Part shown: positions 14,192-33,686 of the stretch, one piece after another | Layout of the letters: every line of letters begins with the position of its first letter | Numbering within the stretch: position 1 is the first letter of the stretch | Translations under genes and position numbers: made by a program | IMG/VR virus record: IMGVR_UViG_3300047554_000408 | Span: 1-33,686 of that record | Origin: a virus | DNA: 33,686 bases | Direction: 5' to 3' (one strand) | The notes under the pieces: model-generated | What the model saw: only the letters and a program-made list of their open reading frames with translations | What the model was told of the DNA's origin: nothing | Databases searched by the model: none

Positions 14192-15345
14192 TGGCTGTTC
14201 CTTCAACTGAAGTTCTTTTAATCAGTGTTGATGGGTTTTCTACTTATGATGTGACTTCTTATGTGAAGTCTATTAGCACTGACCGTGGGCGTAGCCGTGA
14301 GTTGGATAGGTTTGAGGCTGGCACGTTCAGTATCGCTTTTGAGAACCGTAACCGTGTTTTTGACCCGCTAAACACTTCATCTCCTTTTAATGGGCTAATC
14401 GTGCCTAATGTTGGTGTGCAAATCACTACTGAAGGCGTAGGGCGTATTTACGGCTTCATCAAGGACTGGAACTTGATGTATGACGTGAGTGGCGAGTCTA
14501 CTGCTGTCGCTACTGGTACTGATGCGTTCTCGTTTTTGGCTAATCAGACTACTTCGGCATCCTTGTCTCCTGCCGAGCAGACCGCTGGTAACCGTATTGG
14601 TTATGTTTTGGGTCAACCTGACGTTGAATGGCCTTATGGTGGCCCTAACTGGGTTTTGGACACTACTGGCACTATGCTGGTGCAGTCTCACACGATTGAT
14701 GCTGGCACTAACATCCTTGAGTATGCTCAGTTGGTTGAACGTACTGAGGGTGGCTACTTTTTTGTCAATCAGACTGGTGTTATAGAGTTTCAGAAGAACA
14801 GTTACGAGTTAGTAAACAATGTTGTGTTTACTGATGATAATACGGATATTCCTTATCAGGGTGTTGAGATTATTTATGGCTCTGAATTGCTATACAACAC
14901 TATTAACCTGACTCGTTTGGGTGGGGCTAAAAAAACTGTTAGTCGGCCTGTATCTATTGCTGCTTATGGTAACTCTGTGTATGAGGATGATGGGTTGTTG
15001 TATGTTGATGATACTGCGACTCAAAACGCTGCTGAGGTTTTGGCTGCTAAATACTCTGAACCTGAGTATCGTTTTGACACCGTGACTGTGTTTTTAAATC
15101 CTTTAAATAACGCAAAGCAGCAGCGTGTTTTGGGCATTGATTTGGCTCAGATTATTACAATCAAATTTAGACCGAACAACACAGGTTCAAGAATTACAAA
15201 GTTTGCTCGTGTAATTGGTGTAAGTGAAAAGATTGACATTGACGGTCACACTATCACGTTCAAGTTGGCAACGATTGAGAATGAAGTTTTGACCTTAGAT
15301 GGCGATGTCTTTGGTTTGCTAGACTATAACGTATTGGGTTTCTAG
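14191..15345 (+). CDS. Minor tail protein (distal tail / tip-like)
   Basis: 384 aa. The N-terminus with SVDGFSTYDVTSYVKSIS and the DRFEAGTFSIAFENRNRVFD segment is a pattern seen in minor tail proteins that follow the tape measure in actinophages. The rest is beta-rich, ending in a domain with VIGVSEKIDIDGHTITFKL. It probably forms part of the tail tip. It is coupled to the tape measure by a one-base overlap. Confidence 0.78.
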   Translation: MAVPSTEVLLISVDGFSTYDVTSYVKSISTDRGRSRELDRFEAGTFSIAFENRNRVFDPLNTSSPFNGLIVPNVGVQITTEGVGRIYGFIKDWNLMYDVSGESTAVATGTDAFSFLANQTTSASLSPAEQTAGNRIGYVLGQPDVEWPYGGPNWVLDTTGTMLVQSHTIDAGTNILEYAQLVERTEGGYFFVNQTGVIEFQKNSYELVNNVVFTDDNTDIPYQGVEIIYGSELLYNTINLTRLGGAKKTVSRPVSIAAYGNSVYEDDGLLYVDDTATQNAAEVLAAKYSEPEYRFDTVTVFLNPLNNAKQQRVLGIDLAQIITIKFRPNNTGSRITKFARVIGVSEKIDIDGHTITFKLATIENEVLTLDGDVFGLLDYNVLGF

Positions 15346-17012: not shown

Positions 17013-17037
17013 ACCCCTGCTAGTTGCGGGGGTTTTC
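17013..17037. terminator. Bidirectional terminator between lysis genes and whiB
   Basis: ACCCCTGC (17013-17020) pairs with GCGGGGGT (17026-17033) around loop TAGTT, with T-rich sequence to the right and A-rich sequence (AAGAAGTAAAG) to the left. It can end both the late operon and the converging whiB transcript, whose stop codon lies in the same hairpin. Confidence 0.8.
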
Positions 17038-17346
17038 TTTTTCTTGGTGGTATTTTTGTCTGCGTCTTGCTCGCTTGTCGGTGTCTAGTATCCATCGGCG
17101 TTCTTCTGCGGTCATTCCGCCCCATACGCCGTATTCTTCTTCTGCTAGTAGTGCATAGTCTAGGCAGTCTCTTACTAGCGGGCAGGTGTCGCAAATGAAC
17201 TTTGCCATTTTGAGTGAGAGCCTGTTGTCGGGCTCTGCATAGAATTCTTCGGTGTATCCGTCACAGGGCGCACCGTGTTTCTGGATTCCTTCATTTAGTA
17301 GTCGTTGTGCTGCTTGCACTCTTGCACTTTGTCGTAGGGTTGTCAT
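17020..17346 (-). CDS. whiB: WhiB-family iron-sulfur transcription regulator
   Basis: 108 aa, the only convincing minus-strand gene. The four cluster-binding cysteines are C28, C52, C55 and C61 (ICDTCPLVRDC). They are followed by GVWGG at residues 73-77 and a basic C-terminal tail (RARRRQKYHQEK) for DNA contact. WhiB proteins occur only in actinobacteria and their phages and act with the primary sigma factor. On its strand, TAAAGT ends 6 bases before the ATG and TTGCAT lies 18 bases further upstream, suggesting a leaderless transcript. It is a strong candidate for controlling early or late switching. Confidence 0.92.
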   Translation of the reverse strand: MTTLRQSARVQAAQRLLNEGIQKHGAPCDGYTEEFYAEPDNRLSLKMAKFICDTCPLVRDCLDYALLAEEEYGVWGGMTAEERRWILDTDKRARRRQKYHQEKENPRN

Positions 17347-21890: not shown

Positions 21891-22269
21891 TTTTGATGTT
21901 GTGGGCAGACCTGCCCCGCAGGGTTCTAAAAAGAGCGTTGGTAACGGCAGGTTTGTTGAGGCATCGAAGTATCTTCCTGCTTGGCGGGCTGCTGTTGTTT
22001 CGGCAGCCCGTTTAGCGTATTCGGGTGAACCTATCGCTACGCCGTGTCGTTTGCGTGTGGTCGTGTTTTTAGATAAACCTAAGAAACCAAAGTTTGAGTC
22101 TGCGCCTGGGGTTATGCCTGACGTGGATAAGTTGGCTCGTGGAATTGCTGACGCTCTCAAGATTGGTGGCGTGATTGAGGATGATGCTTTGGTCGTGTCG
22201 TTGGAGATTGACAAAATGTGGGCTGTTGACAGACCTGCGGGGGCTTGGATTCACATTGTAACAATTTGA
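21877..22269 (+). CDS. RusA-like Holliday junction resolvase
   Basis: 130 aa, TTG start. The start GRPAPQGSKKSVG and the core PDVDKLARGIADALK (D82, D84 and K85) with EDDALV match RusA, which cuts branched DNA. It overlaps the upstream membrane protein gene by 14 bases. With the exonuclease and annealing-like genes it completes a phage-encoded recombination set. Confidence 0.85.
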   Translation: MVAVSFDVVGRPAPQGSKKSVGNGRFVEASKYLPAWRAAVVSAARLAYSGEPIATPCRLRVVVFLDKPKKPKFESAPGVMPDVDKLARGIADALKIGGVIEDDALVVSLEIDKMWAVDRPAGAWIHIVTI

Positions 22270-22308
22270 TAACGGTGCTTGACTTTTACCGTTACTTGTT
22301 TATAGGCT
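22257..22308 (+). promoter_or_regulatory. Promoter with GTTAYC-type sites for the early gene block
   Basis: TTGACT (22279-22284) and TATAGG (22301-22306, spacer 16) or TAGGCT (22303-22308, spacer 18) form a promoter upstream of 22337. TGTAAC (22257-22262) and GATAAC (22268-22273) are 11 bp apart, the same spacing as in the right-arm promoters, but in the reverse orientation (GTTACA, GTTATC on the minus strand). This links the early operon to the right-arm promoter family. Confidence 0.6.
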
Positions 22309-22336
22309 GTATGTAAGCCAAATGAAAGGGGCGAAA

Positions 22337-22645
22337 ATGAGAGCAAGAAAATCACATCCGATTACCTCACACGAGGCAGGGGAACAGGTCAAGAACCTGA
22401 GCGAAACTAAGAAGGCTATTCTGGTTGTGTTGTCTAAGGGCGACATGGTTGACACTGCCATCTATAACGAGTATCAAAAACTGGTTCTATCAAACAAAGC
22501 ACCTATGGCTTCTGAATCTGGTGTTCGTGCCAGACGTTCGGAACTTGTCACTGATGGGCTTGTTGAGGGTGTCGGTTTCGGTAAGACAGTGTTTGGGCGT
22601 AGGTGCATCATTTGGGGATTGTCTCGTGGCGAAGCACAAGGCTAA
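22337..22645 (+). CDS. Winged-helix-like DNA-binding protein
   Basis: 102 aa from ATG 22337, preceded by AAAGGGG. A basic N-terminus (MRARKSHPITSHEAGEQ) precedes a helix-turn-helix-like body: TKKAILVVLSKGDMVDTAIYN, SGVRARRSELVTDGLVE, then a beta wing GFGKTVFGRRCIIWGL. This is the fold of small phage regulators that sense host replication or repress transcription. It follows the promoter at 22257-22308 and is therefore the first gene of the early operon. Confidence 0.65.
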   Translation: MRARKSHPITSHEAGEQVKNLSETKKAILVVLSKGDMVDTAIYNEYQKLVLSNKAPMASESGVRARRSELVTDGLVEGVGFGKTVFGRRCIIWGLSRGEAQG

Positions 22646-24715: not shown

Positions 24716-24954
24716 GAGAGTTCACTAACCCAACGTATGACGGCAAAAAGTGTGCCTGCTGTAAACCAACCATAGATAACGCTGCAAACTTGCTACTTGA
24801 CGATAATCTGGTTTGGGATGCAGACTTTGAGGCTATCCGTGAGGACTTGGGCCAGTTGCTTATCAGCATTGACCGTTACCTCTCGGTTGGGGCTAAGAAA
24901 ATGCTTGAACCAACACTACAAAATCTGGTACAAAAACTAACCAAAGGGGAATAA
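24712..24954 (+). CDS. Small early protein with CACC motif
   Basis: 80 aa. CACC near the N-terminus (KKCACCKPTIDN) is followed by an acidic helical body (DADFEAIREDLGQLLISID). Ends LTKGE from AAAGGGGAATAATG, a looser version of the junction in which the ribosome site is still read as KGE. AATCTGGT repeats occur at 24805 and 24922. Overlaps the next ATG by one base. Confidence 0.6.
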   Translation: MREFTNPTYDGKKCACCKPTIDNAANLLLDDNLVWDADFEAIREDLGQLLISIDRYLSVGAKKMLEPTLQNLVQKLTKGE

Positions 24955-25178
24955 TGTTAGAGAACCTGAAACCACCACCTAGAACGTTCAGTTGCCGTGT
25001 AGCGACTATCCTAGAAACGTTAGATGACAAAGATAAAAAGATTCTGACCGATGCAGTTATGAACCCTGAATGGCAGTTGCTCACTTTGGAGAACTCTCTA
25101 CGGGATTTGGGTATTCAGTTATCAGCATCAACTATTAAACGTCACCGAACGAAAGCCTGTTCATGCTCGAAAGCCTAA
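24954..25178 (+). CDS. Helix-turn-helix-like small protein
   Basis: 74 aa. ATILETLDDKDKKILTDAV, ENSLRDLGIQLSASTIKRHR and a C-terminal TKACSCSKA are a pattern I recall from a family frequent in actinophages beside phosphoesterases; it looks like a homeodomain-type DNA-binding fold. The N-terminus MLENLKPPP resembles that of the next protein (MLESLKPAP). It overlaps the next gene by 16 bases. Confidence 0.62.
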   Translation: MLENLKPPPRTFSCRVATILETLDDKDKKILTDAVMNPEWQLLTLENSLRDLGIQLSASTIKRHRTKACSCSKA

Positions 25179-26308
25179 AACCCGCCCCTGTCAATCCGCC
25201 GTCACCTTTCGGGGCTGTGTCGGTAGAGTTTGACGGTGTTGATGGTGTAGCGACTACTCCTGGGATGCCTGACGGTGCAGATTTCCGTGACTTCCTAATT
25301 GATGCAGGTTATTCACCTGACGAGTATGAAGTTGTGGGTAATCCTCGCACTAGCCGTTGGCAACGTTATGACGGTTCATGGTTGACCAGTTACAGGTTCA
25401 ACTTTCGACTCAAGAACAAAGACATTGACCTTCCTACGCTTTATGCTCAGGCGAAGCGCACTAAACCTGTCACGCCTAAACCTGTGCAGGGCAAAGCGTT
25501 CGTTATTTTGACTGCTGACTTTCAGGTGGGTAAGGTTGCGTCTCGTGGCGGTACAGAAAATCTGGTCGCCCGTATTCAGGCAGCCTACAACCGTATCGAA
25601 GCGCATTTGAAAAAGAACAAGTATGAACGTATCGTTGTGCTTGACGGTGGTGACATTGTTGAGGGTATTGAGAACGCTGCGAACATGGCTCAGTTGCAGT
25701 CGAATGATTTGTCTCCGATGCAACAGGTTGACCTTGCTGCTGCCCTGATGTGGGACTTACTGAAGTTGACTACTAAGTATGCGCCTGTGTCGTATGCGTC
25801 TGTTGGTTCTAACCACTGTCAATGGCGTGTAGCGAAGCAGGCTGTTGGTAAGCCTGGTGTGGATGACTGGGGCATTGTTATTTTGCAACAACTCCGCAGG
25901 CTTTCCACTGAGGTTGGGTTGGATGTGACGTATTACATTCCGCAACCGCATGACGAGTCGCTCACTGTTGACGTGTTTGATGATGGCTTCCACATTCTCG
26001 GACTCGCTCACGGTCATCAAGTGAACAGACCTGACAGTATGCAACGCTGGCTAGAGAAACAATCGTTTGGTCGTCAACCGTTGGCTGGCTTTACCGTGTT
26101 CTGTTCAGGTCACTTCCACCACACTCGCATTGAGGAACTTGGGCCTGCACATAACGGCGGTTCACGTTTCTGGGTGCAGGGTAGCACTATGGATAACGGC
26201 TCTGACTGGTATCGTCTCGCTGGCGGTTCTGGTGATTCACAAACTGGCATTACGGCGTTTGAGTTGGAACGGGATGTTCCGTTCGCTGGCACTGTAAAAA
26301 GATTTTAA
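25163..26308 (+). CDS. Metallophosphoesterase (calcineurin-like, Mre11-type)
   Basis: 381 aa. It is a two-metal phosphoesterase likely to act on DNA or nucleotides. Motifs in order: TADFQVGK (about 117-124), LDGGDIVEG (160-168), VGSNHCQWR (near 225), GLAHGHQ and GHFHHTR (near 318), which match D-x-Q/H, GDxxE, GNH, GH and GHxH. The N-terminal about 110 residues are extra: an acidic stretch and a beta region. It ends just before the promoter at 26328 and overlaps the HTH-like gene, hinting at a functional pair. Confidence 0.85.
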   Translation: MLESLKPAPVNPPSPFGAVSVEFDGVDGVATTPGMPDGADFRDFLIDAGYSPDEYEVVGNPRTSRWQRYDGSWLTSYRFNFRLKNKDIDLPTLYAQAKRTKPVTPKPVQGKAFVILTADFQVGKVASRGGTENLVARIQAAYNRIEAHLKKNKYERIVVLDGGDIVEGIENAANMAQLQSNDLSPMQQVDLAAALMWDLLKLTTKYAPVSYASVGSNHCQWRVAKQAVGKPGVDDWGIVILQQLRRLSTEVGLDVTYYIPQPHDESLTVDVFDDGFHILGLAHGHQVNRPDSMQRWLEKQSFGRQPLAGFTVFCSGHFHHTRIEELGPAHNGGSRFWVQGSTMDNGSDWYRLAGGSGDSQTGITAFELERDVPFAGTVKRF

Positions 26309-26327
26309 AAAAAGTTTGCAAATGGGC

Positions 26328-26357
26328 TTGACTTTTCTGGTTCGGTTCGTTTAGACT
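26328..26357 (+). promoter_or_regulatory. Promoter for the tRNA-like RNA region and following genes
   Basis: TTGACT (26328-26333) and TTAGAC/TAGACT (26351-26357, spacer 17-18) make a strong promoter; the same TTTAGACTT box recurs in two right-arm promoters (31011, 33048). Transcription would start near 26364, directly before the hairpin at 26365. No GTTAYC elements precede it, unlike those promoters. Confidence 0.7.
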
Positions 26358-26364
26358 TTAGTTG

Positions 26365-26549
26365 TTGGTGGTTTTTCCTTCATTTGTACCACCAATCGGG
26401 TTACTGGTTAGTCAGGGGCTATCCCTTCTCTCCTGGTCAGGTTCGATTCCTGGCAACCCACGAGTGTTTCTGTCGAAGTAGTATCGGCGGGACTATCCAT
26501 CTGTAAGGGCTTGAAAAGAAAGCCGTGGGTTCGACTCCCACAGCAGGAA
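26365..26549 (+). ncRNA. tRNA-like structured RNA (two T-arm-like elements)
   Basis: Hairpin TTGGTGGT (26365-26372)/ACCACCAA (26388-26395). Then GGGTT (26398-26402) can pair AACCC (26455-26459) around a perfect-register T-arm (TCAGG-TTCGATT-CCTGG, 26437-26453). A second T-arm, GTGGG-TTCGACT-CCCAC (26525-26541), follows a class-II-type variable arm GGCTT/AAGCC (26508-26524), a D-arm-like TAGT/ACTA (26479-26495) and a possible acceptor TTCTGTC (26468-26474)/AGCAGGA (26542-26548). Neither unit gives a full canonical anticodon arm: the first is too short (65 nt). They may be degenerate tRNAs or a tRNA mimic. Confidence 0.45.
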
Positions 26550-26573
26550 CACTTACTTTTAGAAGGGAAATTT

Positions 26574-26720
26574 ATGTGCCTTTGCTGTAAGCAGGCTATT
26601 GCTGAAACATTTTGTGACCCGTGCAAACTCACGTTGGAACAGTTTGACATCTCGTACCGTACAGGCGTAAAGTTAGCAACGTTAGATGGCATAAAAAAAC
26701 TGCGGAAAGAGGGTCGCTAA
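26574..26720 (+). CDS. Tiny zinc-ribbon-like protein
   Basis: 48 aa from ATG 26574 with AGAAGGGA upstream. CLCC and CDPC are a clear CxxC pair set (MCLCCKQAIAETFCDPC). The remainder is helical and basic (TLDGIKKLRKEGR). First protein gene after the tRNA-like RNA, overlapping the FmdB-like gene by one base. Confidence 0.6.
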   Translation: MCLCCKQAIAETFCDPCKLTLEQFDISYRTGVKLATLDGIKKLRKEGR

Positions 26721-26899
26721 TGCCTGTGTATGACTACAAATGTGAGTGTGGTAAAACTCGTACTCAAACAGTCAGCATTAAAGAGGAAGATTTTCGTGCC
26801 GTGTGTGACTGCGGTAAAGACATGAAACGTGTGTATAGCGCACCAAACATCAAGTTCAATGGTTCAGGGTTCTATACAACAGATAAGGGCAAGAAATGA
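26720..26899 (+). CDS. FmdB-like zinc ribbon protein
   Basis: 59 aa. MPVYDYKCECGKTRTQTVSI, CDCGKDMKRVYSAP and GSGFYTTD are the FmdB-family zinc ribbon pattern (CxC, CDC and a C-terminal GFY segment). FmdB-like ribbons are often transcription-associated. ATGA overlap with the next gene. Confidence 0.75.
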   Translation: MPVYDYKCECGKTRTQTVSIKEEDFRAVCDCGKDMKRVYSAPNIKFNGSGFYTTDKGKK

Positions 26900-27090
26900 C
26901 AGAGTACAAAGTTACTTTTGAAAAAGACGTAGATTTTGGTTGGCATTGGTCTGTTCACAACGGCAAGTATGAAATCAGCGATTATGCCTTCACTAAATTT
27001 GGTGCTATCCGTAAAGCAAAGCGTTACATAGCAAGGCAAGAAAAAGAAAAGAACCTATACTCTGAGTCGTTTATTGTGAAGGGCGAATAA
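26896..27090 (+). CDS. Small early protein of unknown function
   Basis: 64 aa. Begins TEYKVTFEKDVDFGWHWSVH, with a beta-rich first half and a basic helix (FGAIRKAKRYIARQEKEK). It ends FIVKGE, formed by the in-frame GAAGGGCGAATAATG ribosome site of the next gene, as in the junction array. No recognised family. Confidence 0.55.
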   Translation: MTEYKVTFEKDVDFGWHWSVHNGKYEISDYAFTKFGAIRKAKRYIARQEKEKNLYSESFIVKGE

Positions 27091-27416
27091 TGAAAAGACC
27101 GTGGGGCGAATACAAAGTCTTGGGCGAAAATCCAGTTTGCGTCAAACTAATAACAGTGAACGGCAACAGTCGCCTATCGCTACAATCACATGAGCATCGT
27201 GACGAAATCTGGTTAGCGTTACAACCTGGCTTATACGCTCACGTTGACGGTAACGTGCATGAACTTGGTGTGATGCAACGAATGTTTGTTGGTCGTGGTG
27301 TCGAACACCGCATTGAAAACCCGACAGATGCACCTATTCAACTAATTGAGTTGATGTATGGCAAGTATGACGAGGATGACATCTTCAGGATTCAGGATGA
27401 TTATGGGCGAAACTAA
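27090..27416 (+). CDS. Sugar-phosphate cupin (mannose-6-phosphate isomerase type II-like)
   Basis: 108 aa. RPWGEYKVL, NSRLSLQSHEHRDEIWLAL, GRGVEHRIENP and YGKYDEDDIFRIQDDYGR closely follow the cupin domain found at the C-terminus of mannose-1-phosphate guanylyltransferase/mannose-6-phosphate isomerases; HEHRDE gives metal-binding residues. Free-standing cupins of this kind isomerise sugar phosphates. It supports a phage-encoded sugar route. AATCCAGTT (27129) and AATCTGGTT (27206) repeats lie inside. Confidence 0.82.
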   Translation: MKRPWGEYKVLGENPVCVKLITVNGNSRLSLQSHEHRDEIWLALQPGLYAHVDGNVHELGVMQRMFVGRGVEHRIENPTDAPIQLIELMYGKYDEDDIFRIQDDYGRN

Positions 27417-28134
27417 ACTGTTCGTCTTTGACCTTGACGACACTCTCGCACCGTCTAAACAGGCGATGCCTAAAGAGTTAGCGCATGAACTTGTTATCTT
27501 GTCGCAAAAGTATCAAATCGCTGTACTCACTGGCGGTCAGTATAAGCAGATAGTGAAGCAAGTGTTCAATCAGTTGCCGTTGACTGTCGCTGCCCGTATG
27601 CACGGATTTGGTTGCTCAGGGTCACAATACAAGACCGCTAACGGCACTCTCACTACTGACATGATTCCTGCTGCTAAACGAGCGCATCTAAAAAATCTGG
27701 TCGAAAAAGTTGCTATCGAATTTGGTTACTGGTGTGAGAACCCTGTGGGTGACATTATTGAGGATAGGTTGTCGCAGGTCACGTTTAGTGCGTTAGGGCA
27801 GGAAGCGTCACCTAAGGCTAAATCTGGTTGGGATGTGGATAAGGCGAAACGTCAACGTATGGTTGATAGGTTGCGCCCGCTTGCGCCAGAGTACGAGTTT
27901 CGTATCGGCGGTAGTACAAGCATTGATGTTACGCCTGTTGGTCGTGACAAAGCGTATGGAATGTTGCGTGTGTTAAATCTGGTTGGAGTGGAGTCGTATG
28001 AAACTGTTTATGTGGGTGATTCGTTCAGTAATGCTGGCAACGATTTTCCTGTTTTGTCTACTGGTGTTTTCTGCTTAGAGGTTTCTGGTTGGGAACAGAC
28101 TCTAAATCTGGTTCGTTGGTTTAACCGTGGGTAA
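27397..28134 (+). CDS. HAD-superfamily phosphatase/phosphomannomutase-like
   Basis: 245 aa from ATG 27397 (ATG 27403 is an alternative). Motif I is FDLDDTLAP (nucleophile and acid/base Asp), motif II TGGQYK; the region QVTFSALGQEASPKAKSGWDVDK with RIGGSTSIDVTPVGRDKAYGM is the cap/substrate segment of HAD-type phosphomannomutases; motif IV is YVGDSFSNAGND. It probably makes or removes a sugar phosphate, fitting the adjacent cupin gene. AATCTGGTY repeats recur at 27694, 27831, 27976 and 28105. Confidence 0.8.
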   Translation: MIMGETKLFVFDLDDTLAPSKQAMPKELAHELVILSQKYQIAVLTGGQYKQIVKQVFNQLPLTVAARMHGFGCSGSQYKTANGTLTTDMIPAAKRAHLKNLVEKVAIEFGYWCENPVGDIIEDRLSQVTFSALGQEASPKAKSGWDVDKAKRQRMVDRLRPLAPEYEFRIGGSTSIDVTPVGRDKAYGMLRVLNLVGVESYETVYVGDSFSNAGNDFPVLSTGVFCLEVSGWEQTLNLVRWFNRG

Positions 28135-28456
28135 GTTTCCTAAGCCGTGTCTTGATTGTGGGCGTTTGACTACGCTTGGTAATCGGTGTCTTGAGCATAA
28201 AAATCTGGTTGAACGGTTGCATGATGCTAAACGGGCGCAGGTGAAGCGGGAGTCTGGTCAATATTCTGGTTCGTATCAGAGACGGGCTAGGCAGGTTCGT
28301 GAGACTGCTCTTGTTTGCCACATTTGCGGTGACGGCTTTCGTGCTACTGACCCGTGGGTTGCTGACCATGTTGACCCTGCTAGTCACGGCGATACTGCCG
28401 ATTTGCGGGCTGCTCACCGTTCCTGTAATGCGAAGCGTGGCAATAAGCCGTTGTAA
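28127..28456 (+). CDS. HNH endonuclease
   Basis: 109 aa, GTG start, overlapping the HAD gene by 8 bases. Zinc-binding CLDCG near the N-terminus and CHICGDGF in the middle precede the HNH core ADHVDPASHGD...LRAAHRSCNAKRGNK. It is probably a DNase: packaging-associated or homing. The last codons lead directly into the first iteron-like array. Confidence 0.85.
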   Translation: MGKFPKPCLDCGRLTTLGNRCLEHKNLVERLHDAKRAQVKRESGQYSGSYQRRARQVRETALVCHICGDGFRATDPWVADHVDPASHGDTADLRAAHRSCNAKRGNKPL

Positions 28457-28457
28457 A

Positions 28458-28535
28458 AATCCAGTTGCAGAAAATCTGGTTAGAAAATCTGGTTCAAAAA
28501 TCCAGTTGGAAAAAATCTGGTTGAAAAATCTGGTT
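28458..28535 (+). repeat. Iteron-like array 1 (six AATCTGGTT/AATCCAGTT repeats)
   Basis: Nine-base units start at 28458, 28473, 28486, 28499, 28514 and 28527, with spacings 15, 13, 13, 15 and 13. Four read AATCTGGTT and two AATCCAGTT; the core tetramer CTGG/CCAG is reverse-complementary between the types. Spacer A-runs keep the units in a similar helical face. Likely a protein-binding array: replication, partition or transcription control. Confidence 0.85.
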
Positions 28536-28592
28536 GAACCCGTAACGGGTCACTTGCCCTAGTTGCGGGCTATCCCCTATGCCGTTGTAGGC

Positions 28593-28669
28593 GTTATCAA
28601 AATGTTATCAAAATAACTTGCCTTTTTCGTGTCTGGCGTTTCATAATGGTTAGGTAGCAACAACGCTAC
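28593..28669 (+). promoter_or_regulatory. GTTATC promoter P1 and 5' hairpin of the 28690 gene
   Basis: GTTATCAAA at 28593 and 28604 (11 bp apart), -35 TTGCCT at 28618, -10 CATAAT at 28642-28647 (spacer 18). The RNA would begin near 28654 with GTAGC-AACAAC-GCTAC (28654-28669), a hairpin with A-rich loop, then GAAGGGA before the ATG. The second element is 14 bp from the -35, as in the other members. Bases 28536-28592 hold only a small hairpin, ACCCG/CGGGT. Confidence 0.75.
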
Positions 28670-28689
28670 GCAAATGAAGGGAAAACAAA

Positions 28690-28893
28690 ATGAACGAATT
28701 ACGAGTTACTTCTTATGGTTGGTTTATGGATAACAACGGCAACGCCTTTCCGCCAGAGTTTCCAACTATGGAAGCGTATAGAGATAAACTACGCAACGAT
28801 TATGTGGAAGCCCGTGAAAAGGGTATGGCTACTAATCCTGAAGGTTGGCGACACGCTAACTGTGACCACGCCTACGGAATTTGTGGGGGCTAA
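28690..28893 (+). CDS. Small early protein of unknown function
   Basis: 67 aa, GAAGGGA upstream. Starts NELRVTSYGWFMDNNGN with acidic, aromatic-rich composition and ends HAYGICGG. No family recognised. First gene of the P1 unit; the next gene starts 3 bases after its stop. Confidence 0.6.
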   Translation: MNELRVTSYGWFMDNNGNAFPPEFPTMEAYRDKLRNDYVEAREKGMATNPEGWRHANCDHAYGICGG

Positions 28894-28895
28894 CA

Positions 28896-29099
28896 ATGTC
28901 TAAAAAAGTCACTGTTACTTACACGATTACTTACAACCTAAGCAGTAAATCGCAATCGGGTAGAGAGTATTTGGAATGGCTTGACGGCGATAAAGACGCT
29001 AAAAATCTACGCAAATGGTTTGTGATTGACCGCTTTATTGGTCACGATAACCTATGGCGTTTTGATAGGAACGCAAAACTTACTGTTACGGAAGAATAA
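28896..29099 (+). CDS. Small early protein of unknown function
   Basis: 67 aa from ATG 28896. Begins SKKVTVTYTITYNLSSKSQ, a beta-strand start, then a DGDKDAKNLRKW helix. No clear function. Possible partner of the upstream gene because of the 2-base gap. Confidence 0.58.
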   Translation: MSKKVTVTYTITYNLSSKSQSGREYLEWLDGDKDAKNLRKWFVIDRFIGHDNLWRFDRNAKLTVTEE

Positions 29100-29106
29100 A
29101 AAAACT

Positions 29107-29182
29107 GTTATCGTTTCGTTACCTAATGGGCTTGACTTGCCTAAACGGGTTAGCGATACTAGAACTGTTAGCAAACGCTAAC
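29107..29182 (+). promoter_or_regulatory. GTTAYC promoter P2 and 5' hairpin
   Basis: GTTATC (29107) and GTTACC (29118), -35 TTGACT (29132-29137), -10 GATACT (29155-29160, spacer 17). RNA starts near 29167 with GTTAGC-AAAC-GCTAAC (29167-29182), a 6-bp hairpin. Leader continues to AAGGGAA and ATG 29207. Confidence 0.78.
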
Positions 29183-29206
29183 GAAACTAAATGAAGGGAA
29201 ATACAA

Positions 29207-29455
29207 ATGAGCGCAACAGGAACACTAGAAATTCTTTTCCAAGAACTACGGGAAAGTATCCAAAACTGTGAAGGCACAGAAGCAATACAGGAACGCTACC
29301 AAGCCGTTGTTGAGGAATTTCCACAACTATCTATGACTGATGTTGTCGAGTATTTTGAGGAATGGTTGAAAGCCCGTGAAGATGAAGAACGGGTAGAGCG
29401 TGAGAAGGCTCGTAACTTTATGAATGACCATTTCAAAATTATTTCGGTAATGTAA
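29207..29455 (+). CDS. Small acidic helical protein
   Basis: 82 aa. Starts SATGTLEILFQELRESIQ and is almost all helix (VVEYFEEWLKAREDEERVE). Its leader carries GAAGGGAAA. No known family. Confidence 0.6.
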   Translation: MSATGTLEILFQELRESIQNCEGTEAIQERYQAVVEEFPQLSMTDVVEYFEEWLKAREDEERVEREKARNFMNDHFKIISVM

Positions 29456-29480
29456 CTAAGCGAATTGAAGGGAAAACAAA

Positions 29481-29666
29481 ATGACTAAGTACGAGGGAAC
29501 TCTAACTTTAGGGTTTGAGGTTGATTTAGATGAGAGTGTTGATTACAACACTTCTAGGGGTGAACGCCTAATCCTTGAAGCGATTTATGAGTATTTGGAT
29601 TGGGATTATTTTAGGGAAGCCCGCCTTACTGATGTTGAGGTTACGGAAGGGGAAAATGATGATTGA
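29481..29666 (+). CDS. Small acidic protein
   Basis: 61 aa, start preceded by TTGAAGGGAAA. The sequence TKYEGTLTLGFEVDLDES is beta-rich, then an acidic helix (EYLDWDYFREA). Ends EGENDD, where the in-frame ribosome site of the next gene again spells G-E-N. Overlaps the next gene by 11 bases. Confidence 0.6.
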   Translation: MTKYEGTLTLGFEVDLDESVDYNTSRGERLILEAIYEYLDWDYFREARLTDVEVTEGENDD

Positions 29667-29886
29667 CGAAAAGTGTTACAACTGTGGTTATGAAACTGAC
29701 CCCGAAAGCCTTGACGCTATGGGTTACTGCTATAACTGCCAAATGGCTTATGAGGTTGGTCACGAGGTTGGTTTCATGTCGGCGTTACAACAGTTAGCGG
29801 GTAAGAACCCTAGCGAGTTGGCTAACTTGGATAAGTTGTCTGGTGATGAACGCTATACCTTGTTTGCGAGGTTGCTAAATGGCTAA
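29656..29886 (+). CDS. Small zinc-ribbon protein
   Basis: 76 aa from ATG 29656 (GGAAGGGGA upstream; ATG 29659 also possible). CYNCG and CYNCQ are CxxC pairs near the N-terminus (EKCYNCGYETDPE), followed by a helical tail. It overlaps the next gene by 8 bases. Likely a metal-binding small protein; function unknown. Confidence 0.6.
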   Translation: MMIDEKCYNCGYETDPESLDAMGYCYNCQMAYEVGHEVGFMSALQQLAGKNPSELANLDKLSGDERYTLFARLLNG

Positions 29887-30067
29887 CCTTGTCTATGCTT
29901 TCGATTGTATTGGTTGTTACAACTATTACGGCGAGAATAGCCTAACGATTGACGGCAAACTTTACTGCCCAAATTGCTTACACGAAATCGCTACCGATAG
30001 CCCGTATGTCGAACAGATAGCGGTGCTTTACCCTGTTACACCTTTTAGCCTAGAAGGGGCTTACTAA
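29879..30067 (+). CDS. Small zinc-ribbon-like protein
   Basis: 62 aa. FDCIGCYNYYGEN and LYCPNCLHEI give two CxxC pairs, a classic small ribbon. It overlaps the previous gene by 8 bases and shares one base with the next (TAATG). Unknown function. Confidence 0.6.
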   Translation: MANLVYAFDCIGCYNYYGENSLTIDGKLYCPNCLHEIATDSPYVEQIAVLYPVTPFSLEGAY

Positions 30068-30168
30068 TGAATAAAGAAAAAGACGCTGCCGTTTTCGTGC
30101 TTGAAATGTTTGGGGCGGTAATGCTTGCTGCTCTTGGGTCACTTCTCAGTTTTGCTAGGGGGAAGTGA
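30067..30168 (+). CDS. Very small membrane protein
   Basis: 33 aa: a short charged start (NKEKDAA) and one hydrophobic segment (VFVLEMFGAVMLAALGSLL) ending FARGK. Both ends overlap neighbours by one base, so it is probably translated by coupling. Confidence 0.5.
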   Translation: MNKEKDAAVFVLEMFGAVMLAALGSLLSFARGK

Positions 30169-30368
30169 TGCCTGTAACGATTACACGCTTGAAAGAGATT
30201 GAATTAGTTAGAAGCCCGTATGGTTGCGGTCTTGAGGTTTGCGAAGCCTGTTACCCTGTTCAATACGCTTGCGAGAATTGTTTTGAGGCGTTTGAGTTGC
30301 CGATAGTGAACGGCGAACAGTTTACTTGTGAGGCTTGCGATTGGGTGAATAACGAAATCTGGTCGTAA
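30168..30368 (+). CDS. Cys-rich zinc-binding protein
   Basis: 66 aa from ATG 30168. CGLEVCEACYPVQYACENC and TCEACDW give seven cysteines, suitable for two ribbons. The last codons (GAA ATC TGG TCG TAA) hold the first AATCTGGTC repeat of array 2, so the array begins inside the gene. Confidence 0.6.
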   Translation: MPVTITRLKEIELVRSPYGCGLEVCEACYPVQYACENCFEAFELPIVNGEQFTCEACDWVNNEIWS

Positions 30369-30444
30369 TCTGGTCAAAAAATCCAGTCGAAAAAAATCTG
30401 GTCGGAAAATCTGGTCGGAAAAAATCTGGTCATATAATCTGGTC
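30356..30444 (+). repeat. Iteron-like array 2 (seven AATCTGGTC/AATCCAGTC repeats)
   Basis: Units start at 30356, 30367, 30380, 30395, 30408, 30423 and 30436 (spacings 11, 13, 15, 13, 15, 13). Six read AATCTGGTC and one AATCCAGTC. Compared with array 1 the ninth base is C instead of T in every copy. Confidence 0.85.
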
Positions 30445-30458
30445 AGATTGTAGGCAAC

Positions 30459-30488
30459 CCCTAGCCCGTAACAGGGCAGGGGCTAGGG
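30459..30488 (+). terminator. Strong GC hairpin after array 2, terminator-like
   Basis: CCCTAGCCC (30459-30467) pairs perfectly with GGGCTAGGG (30480-30488) with a 12-base loop that can itself pair GCCC/GGGC. No T run follows, so it may stop transcription by structure alone or protect the RNA end. Bases 30489-30606 show no gene. Confidence 0.5.
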
Positions 30489-30606
30489 CAGGGCTAACGC
30501 CTTGCCCGTTGCCAATTTCACGCCATAGGTTCACCCTTCCAGATAGTGGACTGCCAGAAGCAAACCACAGACACGCCCGAAACGCAAGCCAAGCGGGGCT
30601 AAAAAA

Positions 30607-30657
30607 GATAACAATATTGTTATACAAATTCGCTTGACTTTTTAGCGTGGATAGGCT
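30607..30657 (+). promoter_or_regulatory. GTTAYC promoter P3 with perfect 16-bp palindrome
   Basis: ATAACAATATTGTTAT (30608-30623) is a perfect palindrome of two GTTAT half-sites. TTGACT (30634-30639) is 15 bp from the right half-site. The -10 is unclear (TAGGCT at 30652 is too near). No gene of convincing quality follows before P4; the RNA may be non-coding. A weak minus-strand -35 (TTGCGT) lies 25 bp to the left. Confidence 0.5.
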
Positions 30658-30718
30658 AGGGCGAGAGGGTTAGGATTGTTTGGATACGAACGATTTTTGA
30701 GGCATATTGTCGGGTGAT

Positions 30719-30749
30719 TGTCAAGGGGTTTAGGTAACGATTGGGTAAC
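30719..30749 (-). promoter_or_regulatory. Minus-strand GTTACC element pair with TTGACA
   Basis: GGTAAC at 30733-30738 and 30744-30749 are two GTTACC sites on the minus strand, 11 bp apart. TTGACA on that strand (30724-30719) starts 14 bp from the nearer one, the same geometry as the plus-strand promoters. The -10 is poor. RNA from here would run leftward across the hairpin and array 2, with no gene on that strand. Confidence 0.5.
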
Positions 30750-30881
30750 AATGTCTAAAAATGGCATATAGCCCTGAAACGCCTTGTAAGCCCCGTAGAC
30801 GGCTTGACCCCCCTAAAATGACCTATCTATCACGGCTAGGTCTGAAATGCCCGCTACGGGCGTTCTACGAGGTCACTTTTC

Positions 30882-30935
30882 GTTATCAAACTGTTATCAA
30901 AGTTGCTTGACTTCTAAACGGCTATGGTTTATATG
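30882..30935 (+). promoter_or_regulatory. GTTATC promoter P4
   Basis: GTTATC at 30882 and 30893, TTGACT at 30907-30912 (14 bp from the second site), -10 TATATG at 30930-30935 (spacer 17). P5 follows about 80 bp later, so P4 and P5 drive the same gene in tandem. Bases 30750-30881 contain hairpins (GACCTA/TAGGTC, GCCCG/CGGGC) but no supported gene. Confidence 0.7.
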
Positions 30936-30962
30936 GCATGGGGTAGAAGTGGCTAAAAAATC

Positions 30963-31040
30963 GTTACCATTTCGTTATCAAAATGACTTGACATCGGGGC
31001 GGGCTATCGTTTAGACTTGTAGTAATGCCAGAGAACGGCA
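30963..31040 (+). promoter_or_regulatory. GTTAYC promoter P5 and 5' hairpin
   Basis: GTTACC (30963) and GTTATC (30974), TTGACA (30988-30993) at 14 bp, -10 TTAGAC/TAGACT (31011-31017, spacer 17-18). The RNA begins near 31024 with TGCC-AGAGAAC-GGCA (31026-31040). The leader ends GAAGGGATATCGAATG at 31051-31066. Confidence 0.8.
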
Positions 31041-31063
31041 GATAACAAACGAAGGGATATCGA

Positions 31064-31228
31064 ATGTCTAAAATCACCTGTGAAGATTGCTATGAGGCAG
31101 AAGCACAGATTACTTACCTAATCGGCAATACTGATTGGGCGAGTTGTTTCGAGTGCCTAAAGCACGCCATAACCGACAAGGATACTATCCGCCTAATGGC
31201 GCAAGCCGTTCCAGAGAGCGAAGACTAA
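31064..31228 (+). CDS. Small Cys-containing protein
   Basis: 54 aa, too short for usual gene tracks. ITCEDCYEAEAQ and CFECLKH give two CxxC pairs, a zinc-ribbon pattern shared with several genes to the left. The strong leader (P5, GAAGGGA) supports translation. Followed by the terminator at 31243. Confidence 0.62.
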   Translation: MSKITCEDCYEAEAQITYLIGNTDWASCFECLKHAITDKDTIRLMAQAVPESED

Positions 31229-31242
31229 CCGCCACCGCCTAG

Positions 31243-31264
31243 CCCCCGCCCAAATCGGCGGGGG
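31243..31264 (+). terminator. GC-rich hairpin, terminator-like
   Basis: CCCCCGCC (31243-31250) pairs with GGCGGGGG (31257-31264), loop CAAATC. No T run follows. It ends the P5 unit just before P6. Confidence 0.6.
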
Positions 31265-31270
31265 TGAAGC

Positions 31271-31347
31271 GTTACCAAACTGTTACAAAACGGGGCTTGA
31301 CATTAGCCCCAAAACTTAGACAAAATAGACACACGGCAACACCGCCG
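31271..31347 (+). promoter_or_regulatory. GTTACM promoter P6 and 5' hairpin
   Basis: GTTACC (31271) and GTTACA (31282), TTGACA (31297-31302) at 15 bp, -10 CAAAAT (31321-31326, spacer 18). The RNA starts near 31333 with CGGC-AACACC-GCCG (31334-31347). Leader ends with GAAGGGATACAAAATG. Confidence 0.75.
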
Positions 31348-31367
31348 ACAAATTGAAGGGATACAAA

Positions 31368-31946
31368 ATGGAATTGCTAGAAGTGCCAGAACTAACCGCT
31401 AGGCAAACGCAACTAAAAGCGCAACTATCAGAGTTGGAAAAACTGAAGAGCGAAATTAACTATTTACGCCTGAATGAAGACCCTACGGGCTACCAAGAGC
31501 AAAGCAAATTTTTAGAGCGTTACACCGAACAGTTGGCAGAATTGGCTAAGAAGGCAGACGGCTATAAACGCCTTCTTGAAGGCTGGCAAGAACTAGAGGC
31601 ACACTACGGAAGCCCTGAGAAGTTATACAAGGCACTAGGCGAACTAGGAACGGCAGAGGCGAACATTAGTTACGCTAAACGCCGTAACCAAGAACTAGAG
31701 CGAGCCAAACAAGAGCCAGAGAAGGCACTACTCGCCTACGCTAAATCCCTAGTGCTAAACAATCACCCCGCTAAGTCTGTTCGCCATTTCGGGCAGGGTT
31801 ATCTTGATTGCCGTTTAGAGGAAATCGCCTACGCCTACGGGATAACAACCGAACGGGCAGACGCTAAAGCAAGGCAACTAATCAAAGACACTCGCCTAAG
31901 TTACAACGCTAAAAGCGACAAGTGGACTCAGACTCTTAGCGTATAA
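31368..31946 (+). CDS. Coiled-coil protein with possible DNA-binding C-terminus
   Basis: 192 aa, the largest right-arm protein. Residues 10-110 are heptad-rich (QTQLKAQLSELEKLKSEI, TEQLAELAKKADGYK). The C-terminal part (LDCRLEEIAYAYGITTERAD, then KARQLIKDTRLSYNAKSDKW) could be a winged helix. This makes it a candidate DNA-organising or regulatory protein for the repeats and GTTAYC elements around it, which is a guess. Codons are A/C-ending (CTA, GCC), unlike the structural genes. Confidence 0.65.
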   Translation: MELLEVPELTARQTQLKAQLSELEKLKSEINYLRLNEDPTGYQEQSKFLERYTEQLAELAKKADGYKRLLEGWQELEAHYGSPEKLYKALGELGTAEANISYAKRRNQELERAKQEPEKALLAYAKSLVLNNHPAKSVRHFGQGYLDCRLEEIAYAYGITTERADAKARQLIKDTRLSYNAKSDKWTQTLSV

Positions 31947-31955
31947 GCGGGGCGA

Positions 31956-32068
31956 TGTCAAGCGAATTAGGCAAAATAAATATAACAATATCGTTACCAA
32001 AATTAGCCTAAATAAACTTGACTTGCTCACCGCCTAGCCCGTAAACTTTAGGTAATGGCAAACCGCCA
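31956..32068. promoter_or_regulatory. Divergent GTTAYC promoter pair P7 and 5' hairpin
   Basis: Between 31981 and 31998 TATAACAATATCGTTACC holds a near-palindrome of two half-sites. To the right, TTGACT (32018-32023) starts 25 bp from its half-site, -10 TAAACT (32042-32047, spacer 18). To the left, the minus-strand TTGACA (31961-31956) also starts 25 bp from its half-site. The rightward RNA begins near 32054 and forms TGGC-AAACC-GCCA (32056-32068) before GAAGGGATATCAAATG. Confidence 0.75.
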
Positions 32069-32091
32069 GAAAACAATTGAAGGGATATCAA

Positions 32092-32379
32092 ATGACTTAC
32101 TACGAACTACTAGAAACCCCGCCCGCTAATTGCGAGCCTATCGCCCGCTTGTGGACTTGGAGTGAAAACTACAACTACCCGACACCCGCCACGCTATTTC
32201 TTGACATTACGGGATATAGCGAAGACGAACTAGGGGAACGCCTATGCCGTGACACTATGCCCGCTATCGGCTACCTTGAGGCGGGAATGTTAGGCGAAGC
32301 CTTGACCGCCTACGCTGATTACCCTGATACGGTTATGGCTTATGTTCGGGAACTACTAGCGGGAGAGGCGAACGAATGA
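32092..32379 (+). CDS. Small acidic early protein
   Basis: 95 aa. Begins TYYELLETPPANCEP; the middle DITGYSEDELGERLCRD and the C-terminal helix EALTAYADYPDTVMAYVREL are predicted helical. An earlier in-frame start (32077) would place the ribosome site inside the gene, so ATG 32092 is used. Overlap ATGA to the next gene. Unknown. Confidence 0.6.
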   Translation: MTYYELLETPPANCEPIARLWTWSENYNYPTPATLFLDITGYSEDELGERLCRDTMPAIGYLEAGMLGEALTAYADYPDTVMAYVRELLAGEANE

Positions 32380-32519
32380 AGACCGCCTACATTACGGGGC
32401 TACTATCTGCCCTAGCAATCGTTACCGCTTGGGGCAACACAGGGATTACAGACCCCGCCTTTCTAGTGTTGGGCTTGTCTGCCGTGTATGTCGTAATGTC
32501 CAAAGGGGCTAACAGATGA
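32376..32519 (+). CDS. Small two-span membrane protein
   Basis: 47 aa. Two hydrophobic segments (YITGLLSALAIVTAWG and AFLVLGLSAVYVVM) end in SKGANR. Overlaps both neighbours by 4 bases (ATGA), so it is probably real though short. Unknown function. Confidence 0.55.
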   Translation: MKTAYITGLLSALAIVTAWGNTGITDPAFLVLGLSAVYVVMSKGANR

Positions 32520-32632
32520 GCCAAGACTTTACACTTTGGGAAGTAGTAAACGCTAAAGGCGAAGTGGTAGACATAATCACAGGGGCAACACCCGAAGCAA
32601 TTTTTGGAAGCGTAGCCGTTTCTTATCCCTGA
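32516..32632 (+). CDS. Very small early protein
   Basis: 38 aa. SQDFTLWEVVNAKGEVVD and then a Gly-rich end (ITGATPEAIFGS). ATGA overlap with the gene before. The end is followed by array 3. No known family. Confidence 0.5.
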   Translation: MSQDFTLWEVVNAKGEVVDIITGATPEAIFGSVAVSYP

Positions 32633-32673
32633 ACGGCTAACACCTGAACAAGTGTCTAAAAGGTTCACCCTAA

Positions 32674-32741
32674 AATTTGGTCGGAAAAAATCTGGTCGAA
32701 ATCTGGTCAAAATCTGGTCAGAATTTGGTCACAATCTGGTC
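32674..32741 (+). repeat. Iteron-like array 3 (six AATCTGGTC/AATTTGGTC repeats)
   Basis: Units start at 32674, 32689, 32700, 32711, 32722 and 32733 (spacings 15, 11, 11, 11, 11). Four read AATCTGGTC and two AATTTGGTC. The regular 11-bp phase places the last five on one face of the helix. Followed by C-rich DNA and the third LexA-like box. Confidence 0.85.
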
Positions 32742-32771
32742 AGACCCTAGCCCATCCCTAGCCCGCGCCAT

Positions 32772-32787
32772 TCGAACAGATTTTCGA
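32772..32787. promoter_or_regulatory. Third LexA-like box
   Basis: TCGAAC-AGAT-TTTCGA, one mismatch from the actinobacterial LexA consensus TCGAAC-N4-GTTCGA. It lies just left of P8 and about 0.9 kb from the right end, mirroring the two boxes at the left end. Confidence 0.5.
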
Positions 32788-32818
32788 ACAGCCCAAATCG
32801 GGCAGGGTATCGTTTCAA

Positions 32819-32913
32819 GATATACAACACACACCGCCAGAATGTCAAGCGAATTTAGATAACGATATTGTTACCAAAATAGTCTTGACATTTCACCACG
32901 CATCACCTAAGGT
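32819..32913. promoter_or_regulatory. Divergent GTTAYC promoter pair P8
   Basis: GATAACGATATTGTTACC (32858-32875) has a half-site on each strand. Right: TTGACA (32885-32890) 15 bp from its half-site, -10 TAAGGT (32908-32913, spacer 17). Left: minus-strand TTGACA (32848-32843), also 15 bp from its half-site, with TATATC at 32824-32819 (spacer 18). The leftward RNA would cross the LexA-like box and array 3. No convincing gene follows P8 to the right before P9. Confidence 0.7.
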
Positions 32914-32962
32914 CACGCCCGCCACACACCCGCCCGCCCGAAATAACATATGAACGCAAGCA

Positions 32963-33075
32963 AGTCAAGCGAATTTCAAAAAAACTTTATAACGATATCG
33001 TTATCAAAATTGTTGCGTGAAATGTTGCGCTAGACGCAGGCACGGGGTTAGACTTGTCTCAATGGCAAACCGCCA
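32963..33075. promoter_or_regulatory. Divergent GTTATC promoter pair P9 and 5' hairpin
   Basis: ATAACGATATCGTTAT (32989-33004) is a perfect 16-bp palindrome. Right: weak -35 TTGCGC (33025-33030) 25 bp from its half-site, -10 TTAGAC/TAGACT (33048-33054). Left: minus-strand TTGACT (32968-32963), also 25 bp from its half-site. The rightward RNA starts near 33060 and forms TGGC-AAACC-GCCA (33063-33075) before GAAGGGATATCAAATG. Confidence 0.75.
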
Positions 33076-33097
33076 GACGCAAACGAAGGGATATCAA

Positions 33098-33232
33098 ATG
33101 AACTACGGAAGACGAACAAGGGTTACACCTACAAGGGCGGGTGTCGTAACGGACACTTATTTTATTTGCTACTACTGCCCCGCCGAATTTGACACCGAAG
33201 CCGAGGCAACCTGCCACGCTTGCGAGAACTAG
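33098..33232 (+). CDS. Small zinc-ribbon protein
   Basis: 44 aa from ATG 33098. Basic N-terminus (NYGRRTRVTPTRAG), then FICYYCPAEFDTEAEATCHAC with two CxxC pairs. The P9 leader supports this start. Unknown function; same general type as the other Cys-rich right-arm proteins. Confidence 0.62.
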   Translation: MNYGRRTRVTPTRAGVVTDTYFICYYCPAEFDTEAEATCHACEN

Positions 33233-33244
33233 AAGGGATAACAA

Positions 33245-33436
33245 ATGACTAACTACCTAAACGAAGAAGAACTAGAAGCCCTAGCGTACCTAGTAGACGA
33301 AGTGAAAGACACCGCCAGATTTCTAACCCTAGACAAGGCAGAAACCCGTGAGGATATCGCCCGCCTTTGGGGTGACCTTGACTACCTCAAGGAGCAACTA
33401 GAGAAGGCTCTAGACCTCACCCGTTCACACCTCTAG
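33245..33436 (+). CDS. Small acidic helical protein
   Basis: 63 aa, preceded by GAAGGGATAACAAATG. All helical and charged (EEELEALAYLVDEVKDTAR, REDIARLWGDLDYLKEQLEKAL). It is the last gene; a terminator follows. Confidence 0.62.
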   Translation: MTNYLNEEELEALAYLVDEVKDTARFLTLDKAETREDIARLWGDLDYLKEQLEKALDLTRSHL

Positions 33437-33452
33437 CCACCACCTAAGCAAG

Positions 33453-33485
33453 CCCCCTGCCAATCGGCGGGGGGTTTTCTTTTTA
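33453..33485 (+). terminator. Intrinsic terminator of the right arm
   Basis: CCCCCTGCC (33453-33461) pairs with GGCGGGGGG (33466-33474) around AATC, followed by TTTTCTTTTT. This is the most convincing right-arm terminator. Confidence 0.85.
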
Positions 33486-33505
33486 CCCTGAGCCAAGCTT
33501 GTTAT

Positions 33506-33520
33506 TGAGAATGATTATCA
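33506..33520. promoter_or_regulatory. Fur-box-like palindrome
   Basis: TGAGAAT-G-ATTATCA is one base from the 7-1-7 Fur/Zur-type consensus TGATAAT-N-ATTATCA. It lies in non-coding DNA between the last terminator and the terminal repeat, with no gene immediately downstream inside the window. Bases 33521-33607 contain no other recognised signal. Confidence 0.45.
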
Positions 33521-33607
33521 ATAGCAATAAGCCTCACCCCCGCCCCAAAGCCCGCCACGCCTAGCCCCGCCTACCAAAAGGCAACGCCACAGAAGCCCCG
33601 TAGAAGC

Positions 33608-33686
33608 CATTTCACACCCCTAGCAAGGCAATCACCCTGCCAGCACCCCCAAAGCCCGCCACAAGGCGCACAGAGCCTTACAGACC
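33608..33686. repeat. Right copy of imperfect terminal direct repeat
   Basis: Matches 1-79 at 73 of 79 positions. See the left copy. The window ends exactly at the end of the match; whether the following bases would also match (such as the TTCGAAC boxes) cannot be seen. Confidence 0.8.

Follow-up and report, generated by a model that had tools for sequence, protein, structure and literature searches.

The response regulator MtrA, a member of the OmpR/PhoB family, is essential in Mycobacterium tuberculosis and conserved across actinobacteria. In Corynebacterium glutamicum its consensus is (A/G)TAACAATttn(A/G)TAACAAT, and a site activates when it lies upstream of the -35 box and represses when it lies near the -10 box (PMC3353115); in Streptomyces its sites read GTnACC-N5-GTnAC (PMC5650626, PMC13189361). 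Sites of another host regulator, CtrA, occur in phages of alphaproteobacteria, where binding and regulation were demonstrated experimentally and a role in lytic deferment was proposed (PMC9437464). A search of the open-access literature, which was not exhaustive, returned no report of MtrA being used by a phage. The present analysis concerns the 33.7-kb freshwater virus of IMG/VR record IMGVR_UViG_3300047554_000408 (positions 1 to 33,686; the whole stretch is hereafter called the window), in which a siphophage-standard left arm (terminase, portal, capsid) precedes a replication block and many small genes make up the right arm. Repeated GTTAYC boxes upstream of its early-operon and right-arm promoters are proposed, with a probability of about 0.72, to be binding sites through which MtrA of the host would activate transcription.

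The repeat unit of these boxes is the 11-bp tandem YGTTAYCAAAT, since a pyrimidine and AAAT flank each GTTAYC half-site. GTTAYC lies 14, 15, 25 or 26 bp upstream of TTGAC at 12 places in the window, all to the right of position 28456, compared with a mean of 0.012 and a maximum of 1 in dinucleotide shuffles of 28456-33686. Five exact GTTAYC-N5-GTTAYC pairs are present, four on the plus strand (28593, 29107, 30882 and 30963) and one on the minus strand (30749..30733), a number reached in none of 500 right-arm shuffles (0.00 expected). The preliminary description, made from the sequence alone, had assigned GTTAYC elements at a fixed distance from TTGAC-type -35 boxes to nine promoters (P1 to P9), with tandem copies always 11 bp apart. 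The fixed placement is borne out by these counts apart from P6, where the spacing is 26/15, and the -35 type holds for most promoters, P1 (TTGCC) and P9 (TTGCG) excepted. Exact tandem copies 11 bp apart are found in the five pairs; the second copy at P6 is GTTACA, and P3, P7, P8 and P9 carry, in place of tandem pairs, palindromes in which ATAACRAT is joined to ATYGTTAY. The minus-strand pair noted by 30719 is indeed present, as is the pair of opposite orientation before the early-operon promoter at 22279.

At P7, P8 and P9, each half of the palindrome faces its own promoter, so that one site is common to two divergent promoters, an arrangement that had previously been missed. If read by MtrA, such palindromic boxes would be shared bidirectional switches, of a kind that the literature examined does not report for MtrA. 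In 30640-30880, between P3 and P4, there is a minus-strand promoter and no gene is evident; the minus-strand promoters at 30724, 31961, 32848 and 32968 would yield antisense or short RNAs.

The boxes agree with described MtrA sites in consisting of two direct repeats with a period of about 11 bp (6-bp half-sites, 5-bp spacer) and in the sequence of half-site and spacer (RTAACAAT / GTnACC). The reverse complement of the C. glutamicum consensus, ATTGTTAY-naa-ATTGTTAY, equals the phage consensus position by position. Moreover, the tightest of 294 M. tuberculosis fragments, Rv2524c (KD 4.6e-8 M), contains GTTATCAAATCGTTATG (GTTATC-AAATC-GTTATG; PMC10609481). A scoring matrix built from phage sites only, with heavy pseudocounts, gave 18.3, 12.3, 8.6, 5.8 and -3.2 on five fragments of that study, which is exactly the order of their KD values (4.6e-8, 2.5e-7, 1.1e-5 and 1.8e-4 M, and no binding); the set is small (n=5), an exact order being expected by chance once in 120. 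This ranking is the strongest single argument for MtrA. Of 11 Microbacteriaceae genomes, 10 gave an MtrA match above cut-off, small ones of 1.2-1.8 Mb among them and one of 0.9 Mb being the exception, and the recognition-helix core DTRLVNVHVQRLRAKVE of one host MtrA is identical to that of M. tuberculosis MtrA (PDB 2gwr).

The preference of the preliminary description for an activator over a repressor is supported: the distances between site and -35 are phased (14, 25 and 36 bp), no right-arm site overlaps the core promoter, and well-formed promoters of sigma-70 type accompany the sites in many phages. A single regulon over the right arm, as had been proposed, also fits the data, and its regulator, which had been left unnamed, would most likely be a host protein, MtrA, rather than a phage protein. 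According to the model suggested here, two MtrA DNA-binding domains would lie head-to-tail on two YGTTAYCAAAT units, one helical turn apart, upstream of a near-consensus -35. With the boxes on one helix face, covering roughly -61 to -45, bound MtrA may contact sigma-A or the alpha subunit, a model based on where the sites lie and on how MtrA activates in C. glutamicum, and could thereby recruit or stabilise the sigma-A RNA polymerase of the host at the promoters of the early operon and the right arm. Where promoters diverge, a palindrome formed by two half-sites would serve both directions. The AAAT tracts, one turn apart, lie near the positions usually contacted by the alpha subunit, as they would if the boxes were UP-element-like DNA touched by polymerase with no dedicated regulator. 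The GTTAYC core, however, is sequence-specific and conserved, also in inverted and palindromic arrangements, which makes this the least probable of the explanations considered.

To establish how far the layout extends, IMG/VR was scanned for GTTAYCN5GTTAYCN8TTGAC, which returned at least 119 stretches, and the full architecture with a -10 box was found in 57 viral contigs. Control patterns in the viral collection gave 0 matches when the -35 was displaced by half a helical turn, 0 when the copies were so displaced and 1 when the half-sites were inverted. Among the matches listed and outside the seed match, distances from GTTAYC to TTGRC peak at 15 (32), 26 (30), 25 (16) and 36 (16) above a background of about 4-5, while distances between GTTAYC copies are mostly 11 (64), with 22 (6) and 33 (10) also represented. 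Several positions outside the search pattern are conserved, namely the pyrimidine before and the AAAT after each half-site, a C preceding the -35, and TANNNT after a spacer of 17-18. When a single half-site was required in the search, the other emerged as GTTAY (57-95% per position) with a spacer of AAAT type. More distant relatives such as L031 carry the pair at 25/36 in place of 14/25, helical phase being kept. The sites are concentrated in phage promoter regions of more than one lineage. The box of the early operon, which reads TTGTAACARTYTRATAAC and lies where the RusA gene ends, is found again in L003-L005, L033, L009, L011, L029-L032 and L086. The right-arm boxes come and go among relatives, being present in L029, L031, L032, L085 and L086.

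Phages have many such tight layouts and chromosomes few, which would be expected of an activator encoded by the phage, candidates being WhiB and the small protein of winged-helix-like type encoded at 22322-22645; WhiB is indeed common in box-bearing phages, 25 of 50 contigs encoding it. On the other hand, the phage phiPsal1 and L011 have WhiB and no right-arm boxes, several large box-bearing contigs give no WhiB match, the sizes of box-bearing contigs lie between 4 and 137 kb, and host chromosomes have the motif as well, so that a phage-encoded activator appears highly unlikely. WhiB was rejected as the regulator, as it does not track the boxes and about half of the 50 contigs, some of which are fragments, have no WhiB match. 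No MtrA was found in 13 phage records searched, and a phage-encoded OmpR-type protein was likewise rejected, the corresponding DNA-binding domain being found in 0 of 51 records.

In 200 host genomes, GTTAYCN5GTTAYC is enriched roughly four-fold over a reversed-pattern control (our own count), and open reading frames (ORFs) adjoining these pairs were read as NlpC/P60, DivIVA, FhaA and rhodopsin genes, among others. Loose footprint matches precede NlpC/P60 orthologues at about 13 of 30 loci where about 3 are expected by our arithmetic, which is only suggestive. Of 400 Microbacteriaceae genomes, 11 contain the tight promoter form (control 0). A GTDB scan with the full promoter gave 21 matches, near the chance estimate of about 15, and some 7 of them are actinobacterial, mostly at sugar-transporter promoters. 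The same layout stands before sugar ABC-transporter genes in the actinobacterial chromosomes L336, L337, L340-L344, L346, L219, L221, L223, L224 and L228, often with a LacI-type operator after it, and this suggests that in Microbacteriaceae, Propionibacteriaceae and Bifidobacteriaceae sugar uptake may have a general activator.

Several observations weigh against MtrA as the regulator. As judged by downstream ORFs, 8 of the 11 tight host promoters precede sugar ABC-transporter genes, which are not classical MtrA targets, and this placement, unexpected for MtrA, is the main reason why the probability given above is not higher. No box was found in the 420 bp upstream of mtrA itself in 10 hosts; a site before mtrA is reportedly present in S. 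venezuelae and is said to be neither universal nor defining. The right-arm boxes are absent from the close relative L009 and from phiPsal1 (and from L011). The upstream half of the early box overlaps the 3' end of the RusA gene and is partly coding (Val-Thr-Ile/Val-stop), so that its conservation can be credited only in part to the box. The host, furthermore, was itself deduced from the window: it is very likely an actinobacterium, because the window encodes WhiB and its best capsid match (49.5% identity) is that of the Pontimonas phage phiPsal1, which infects Microbacteriaceae, an actinobacterial family to which the host probably belongs. To our knowledge, WhiB is restricted to actinobacteria and their phages, and Corynebacterium was the sole positive when 14 control genomes were searched for it. 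Finally, the sites of MtrA, GlnR and AfsQ1 overlap in Streptomyces (PMC10704036, PMC3662644).

The transporter promoters, to which most actinobacterial matches of the wider scan also belong, and the lack of an autoregulatory box before mtrA would both be accommodated if a paralogue, such as an AfsQ1-like or unnamed sugar-uptake regulator, read the sites in place of MtrA, and the hosts do carry several regulators of OmpR type. This main rival is nevertheless considered unlikely: 20 further response-regulator genes equally lack such a box upstream, the box of one RegX3-like host gene is of another kind, made of GTTTACC repeats, and a paralogue would leave aside both the exact ordering of M. tuberculosis MtrA affinities by the phage matrix and the fit to the C. 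glutamicum MtrA consensus. The nitrogen regulator GlnR likewise has boxes spaced by about 11 bp, which in S. venezuelae read GTnAC-n6-GTnAC (PMC10704036, PMC3662644). Its amtB box in the same host family, in contrast, is GTAAC-n6-GAAAC with no GTTAYC pair, and the phage boxes lack the b-site GaAAc six bases after gTnAc; GlnR was rejected as far as sequence allows and is hardly credible as the reader of these sites.

The positions of all boxes and of the neighbouring genes are collected below. The ORFs behind P1 and P2 belong to no known family among those scanned. Most modules behind P5-P9 have a GAAGGG-type leader directly 5' of the ATG. A leader common to right-arm transcripts, roughly GGCAAACCGCCAGA...GAAGGGATATCAAATG, is seen at 31051, 31355, 32079, 33085 and other positions; one of the same type is found in L009 (near 9400), there without MtrA boxes. 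Several relatives of the window also give a minus-strand WhiB match.

Features of the window; box scores come from a matrix derived from the sites of other phages.
Feature	Position	Strand	Sequence	Promoter context (-35, -10) or detail	Score
Early-operon MtrA-type box	22257..22273	minus	GTAACAAT-TTG-ATAAC on plus strand	reversed orientation, right before -35 TTGACT (22279-22284)	22.1
P1 box	28593..28609	plus	GTTATCAAAATGTTATC	25/14 bp to -35 TTGCCT (28618-28623); -10 CATAAT (28642-28647)	27.5
P2 box	29107..29123	plus	GTTATCGTTTCGTTACC	25/14 bp to -35 TTGACT (29132-29137); -10 GATACT (29155-29160)	25.9
P3 palindrome	30607..30624	strandless	GATAACAATATTGTTATA	right half 15 bp to -35 TTGACT (30634-30639)	
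Minus-strand box	30733..30749	minus	GTTACCCAATCGTTACC	25/14 bp to -35 TTGACA (30724-30719); no good -10 seen	24.3
P4 box	30882..30898	plus	GTTATCAAACTGTTATC	25/14 bp to -35 TTGACT (30907-30912); -10 TATATG (30930-30935)	26.5
P5 box	30963..30979	plus	GTTACCATTTCGTTATC	25/14 bp to -35 TTGACA (30988-30993); -10 TAGACT (31012-31017)	27.3
P6 box	31271..31287	plus	GTTACCAAACTGTTACA	26/15 bp to -35 TTGACA (31297-31302)	21.3
P7 palindrome	31981..31998	strandless	TATAACAATATCGTTACC	divergent; 25 bp to plus-strand -35 (32018-32023), 25 bp to minus-strand -35 (31961-31957)	
P8 palindrome	32858..32875	strandless	GATAACGATATTGTTACC	divergent; 15 bp to plus-strand -35 (32885-32890), 15 bp to minus-strand -35 (32848-32843)	
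P9 palindrome	32988..33005	strandless	TATAACGATATCGTTATC	25 bp to plus-strand -35 TTGCGC (33025-33030; -10 TAGACT 33049), 25 bp to minus-strand -35 (32968-32964)	
WhiB-family gene	17020-17346	minus		Pfam match, 62 bits; between plus-strand genes	
Small genes behind P1 and P2	28690..30368	plus		ORFs e.g. 28690-28893, 29207-29455, 29481-29666, 29575-29886, 29879-30067, 30165-30368	
Short gene modules behind P5-P9	31064..33436	plus		31064-31228, 31353-31946, 32077-32379, 32376-32519, 33098-33232, 33245-33436	

A second repeat, AAATCTGGTY, occurs in 19 copies on the plus strand and 0 on the minus strand (28457-28535, 30355-30445 and 32688-32740, with others scattered over 24805-28202), partly arrayed at a spacing of about 13 bp behind gene blocks and accompanied by AAATCCAGTY variants. 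Because of this strand bias, the sequence suggests that it may act at the RNA level. It is also found in the close relative L004, and at the same place L009 has arrays of TTTGGTTCGG type. Between its small and large terminase genes (14110-14690), L009 has an extra reading frame that might be adenine-methyltransferase-like, a guess from reading only. Searches of the window for RNA families and tRNAs found none, and positions 1-25000 gave no nucleotide match to an annotated phage collection.

Taken together, MtrA control would place the early and accessory genes of the phage under an essential regulator of the host, one with links to osmotic state, cell division and the cell wall, and the phage would need no activator of its own. 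Its gain could be either a dependable strong host activator or a readout of host state, as proposed for CtrA (PMC9437464). That several lineages of freshwater-actinobacteria phages share MtrA as activator, infection reading the envelope, division or osmotic state of the host in a counterpart to CtrA deferment, is put forward tentatively and seems to us the less probable outcome. That MtrA binds these boxes, that it activates and what it would signal is in each case what we infer from sequence. Should the proposal be true, infection would depend on host physiology in a testable manner, the boxes would mark actinobacterial phages in metagenomes, and the compact phage promoters would serve as natural MtrA reporters.

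In comparison with known systems, the phage boxes resemble the MtrA boxes of C. glutamicum, M. tuberculosis and Streptomyces in their direct repeat of 11-bp period, their GTTAY / RTAAC half-site, their AAAT-type spacer and their position upstream of the -35 at activated genes; they differ in standing in phage promoters, in many copies near the high-affinity consensus, in their fixed 14/25 (15/26, 25/36) phasing and in being palindromic in some cases. Cyanophage genes are reportedly placed under the PhoB system of their host, and there, as predicted here, a host two-component response regulator controls phage genes, those being phosphate genes whereas the ones here are early and right-arm genes without assigned function. 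The nearest precedent is CtrA in alphaproteobacterial phages, with which the present case would share sites for a host master regulator of OmpR type in phage promoter regions of several independent lineages, whereas phylum, regulator and motif are different and what experiment established for CtrA is predicted here from DNA sequence.

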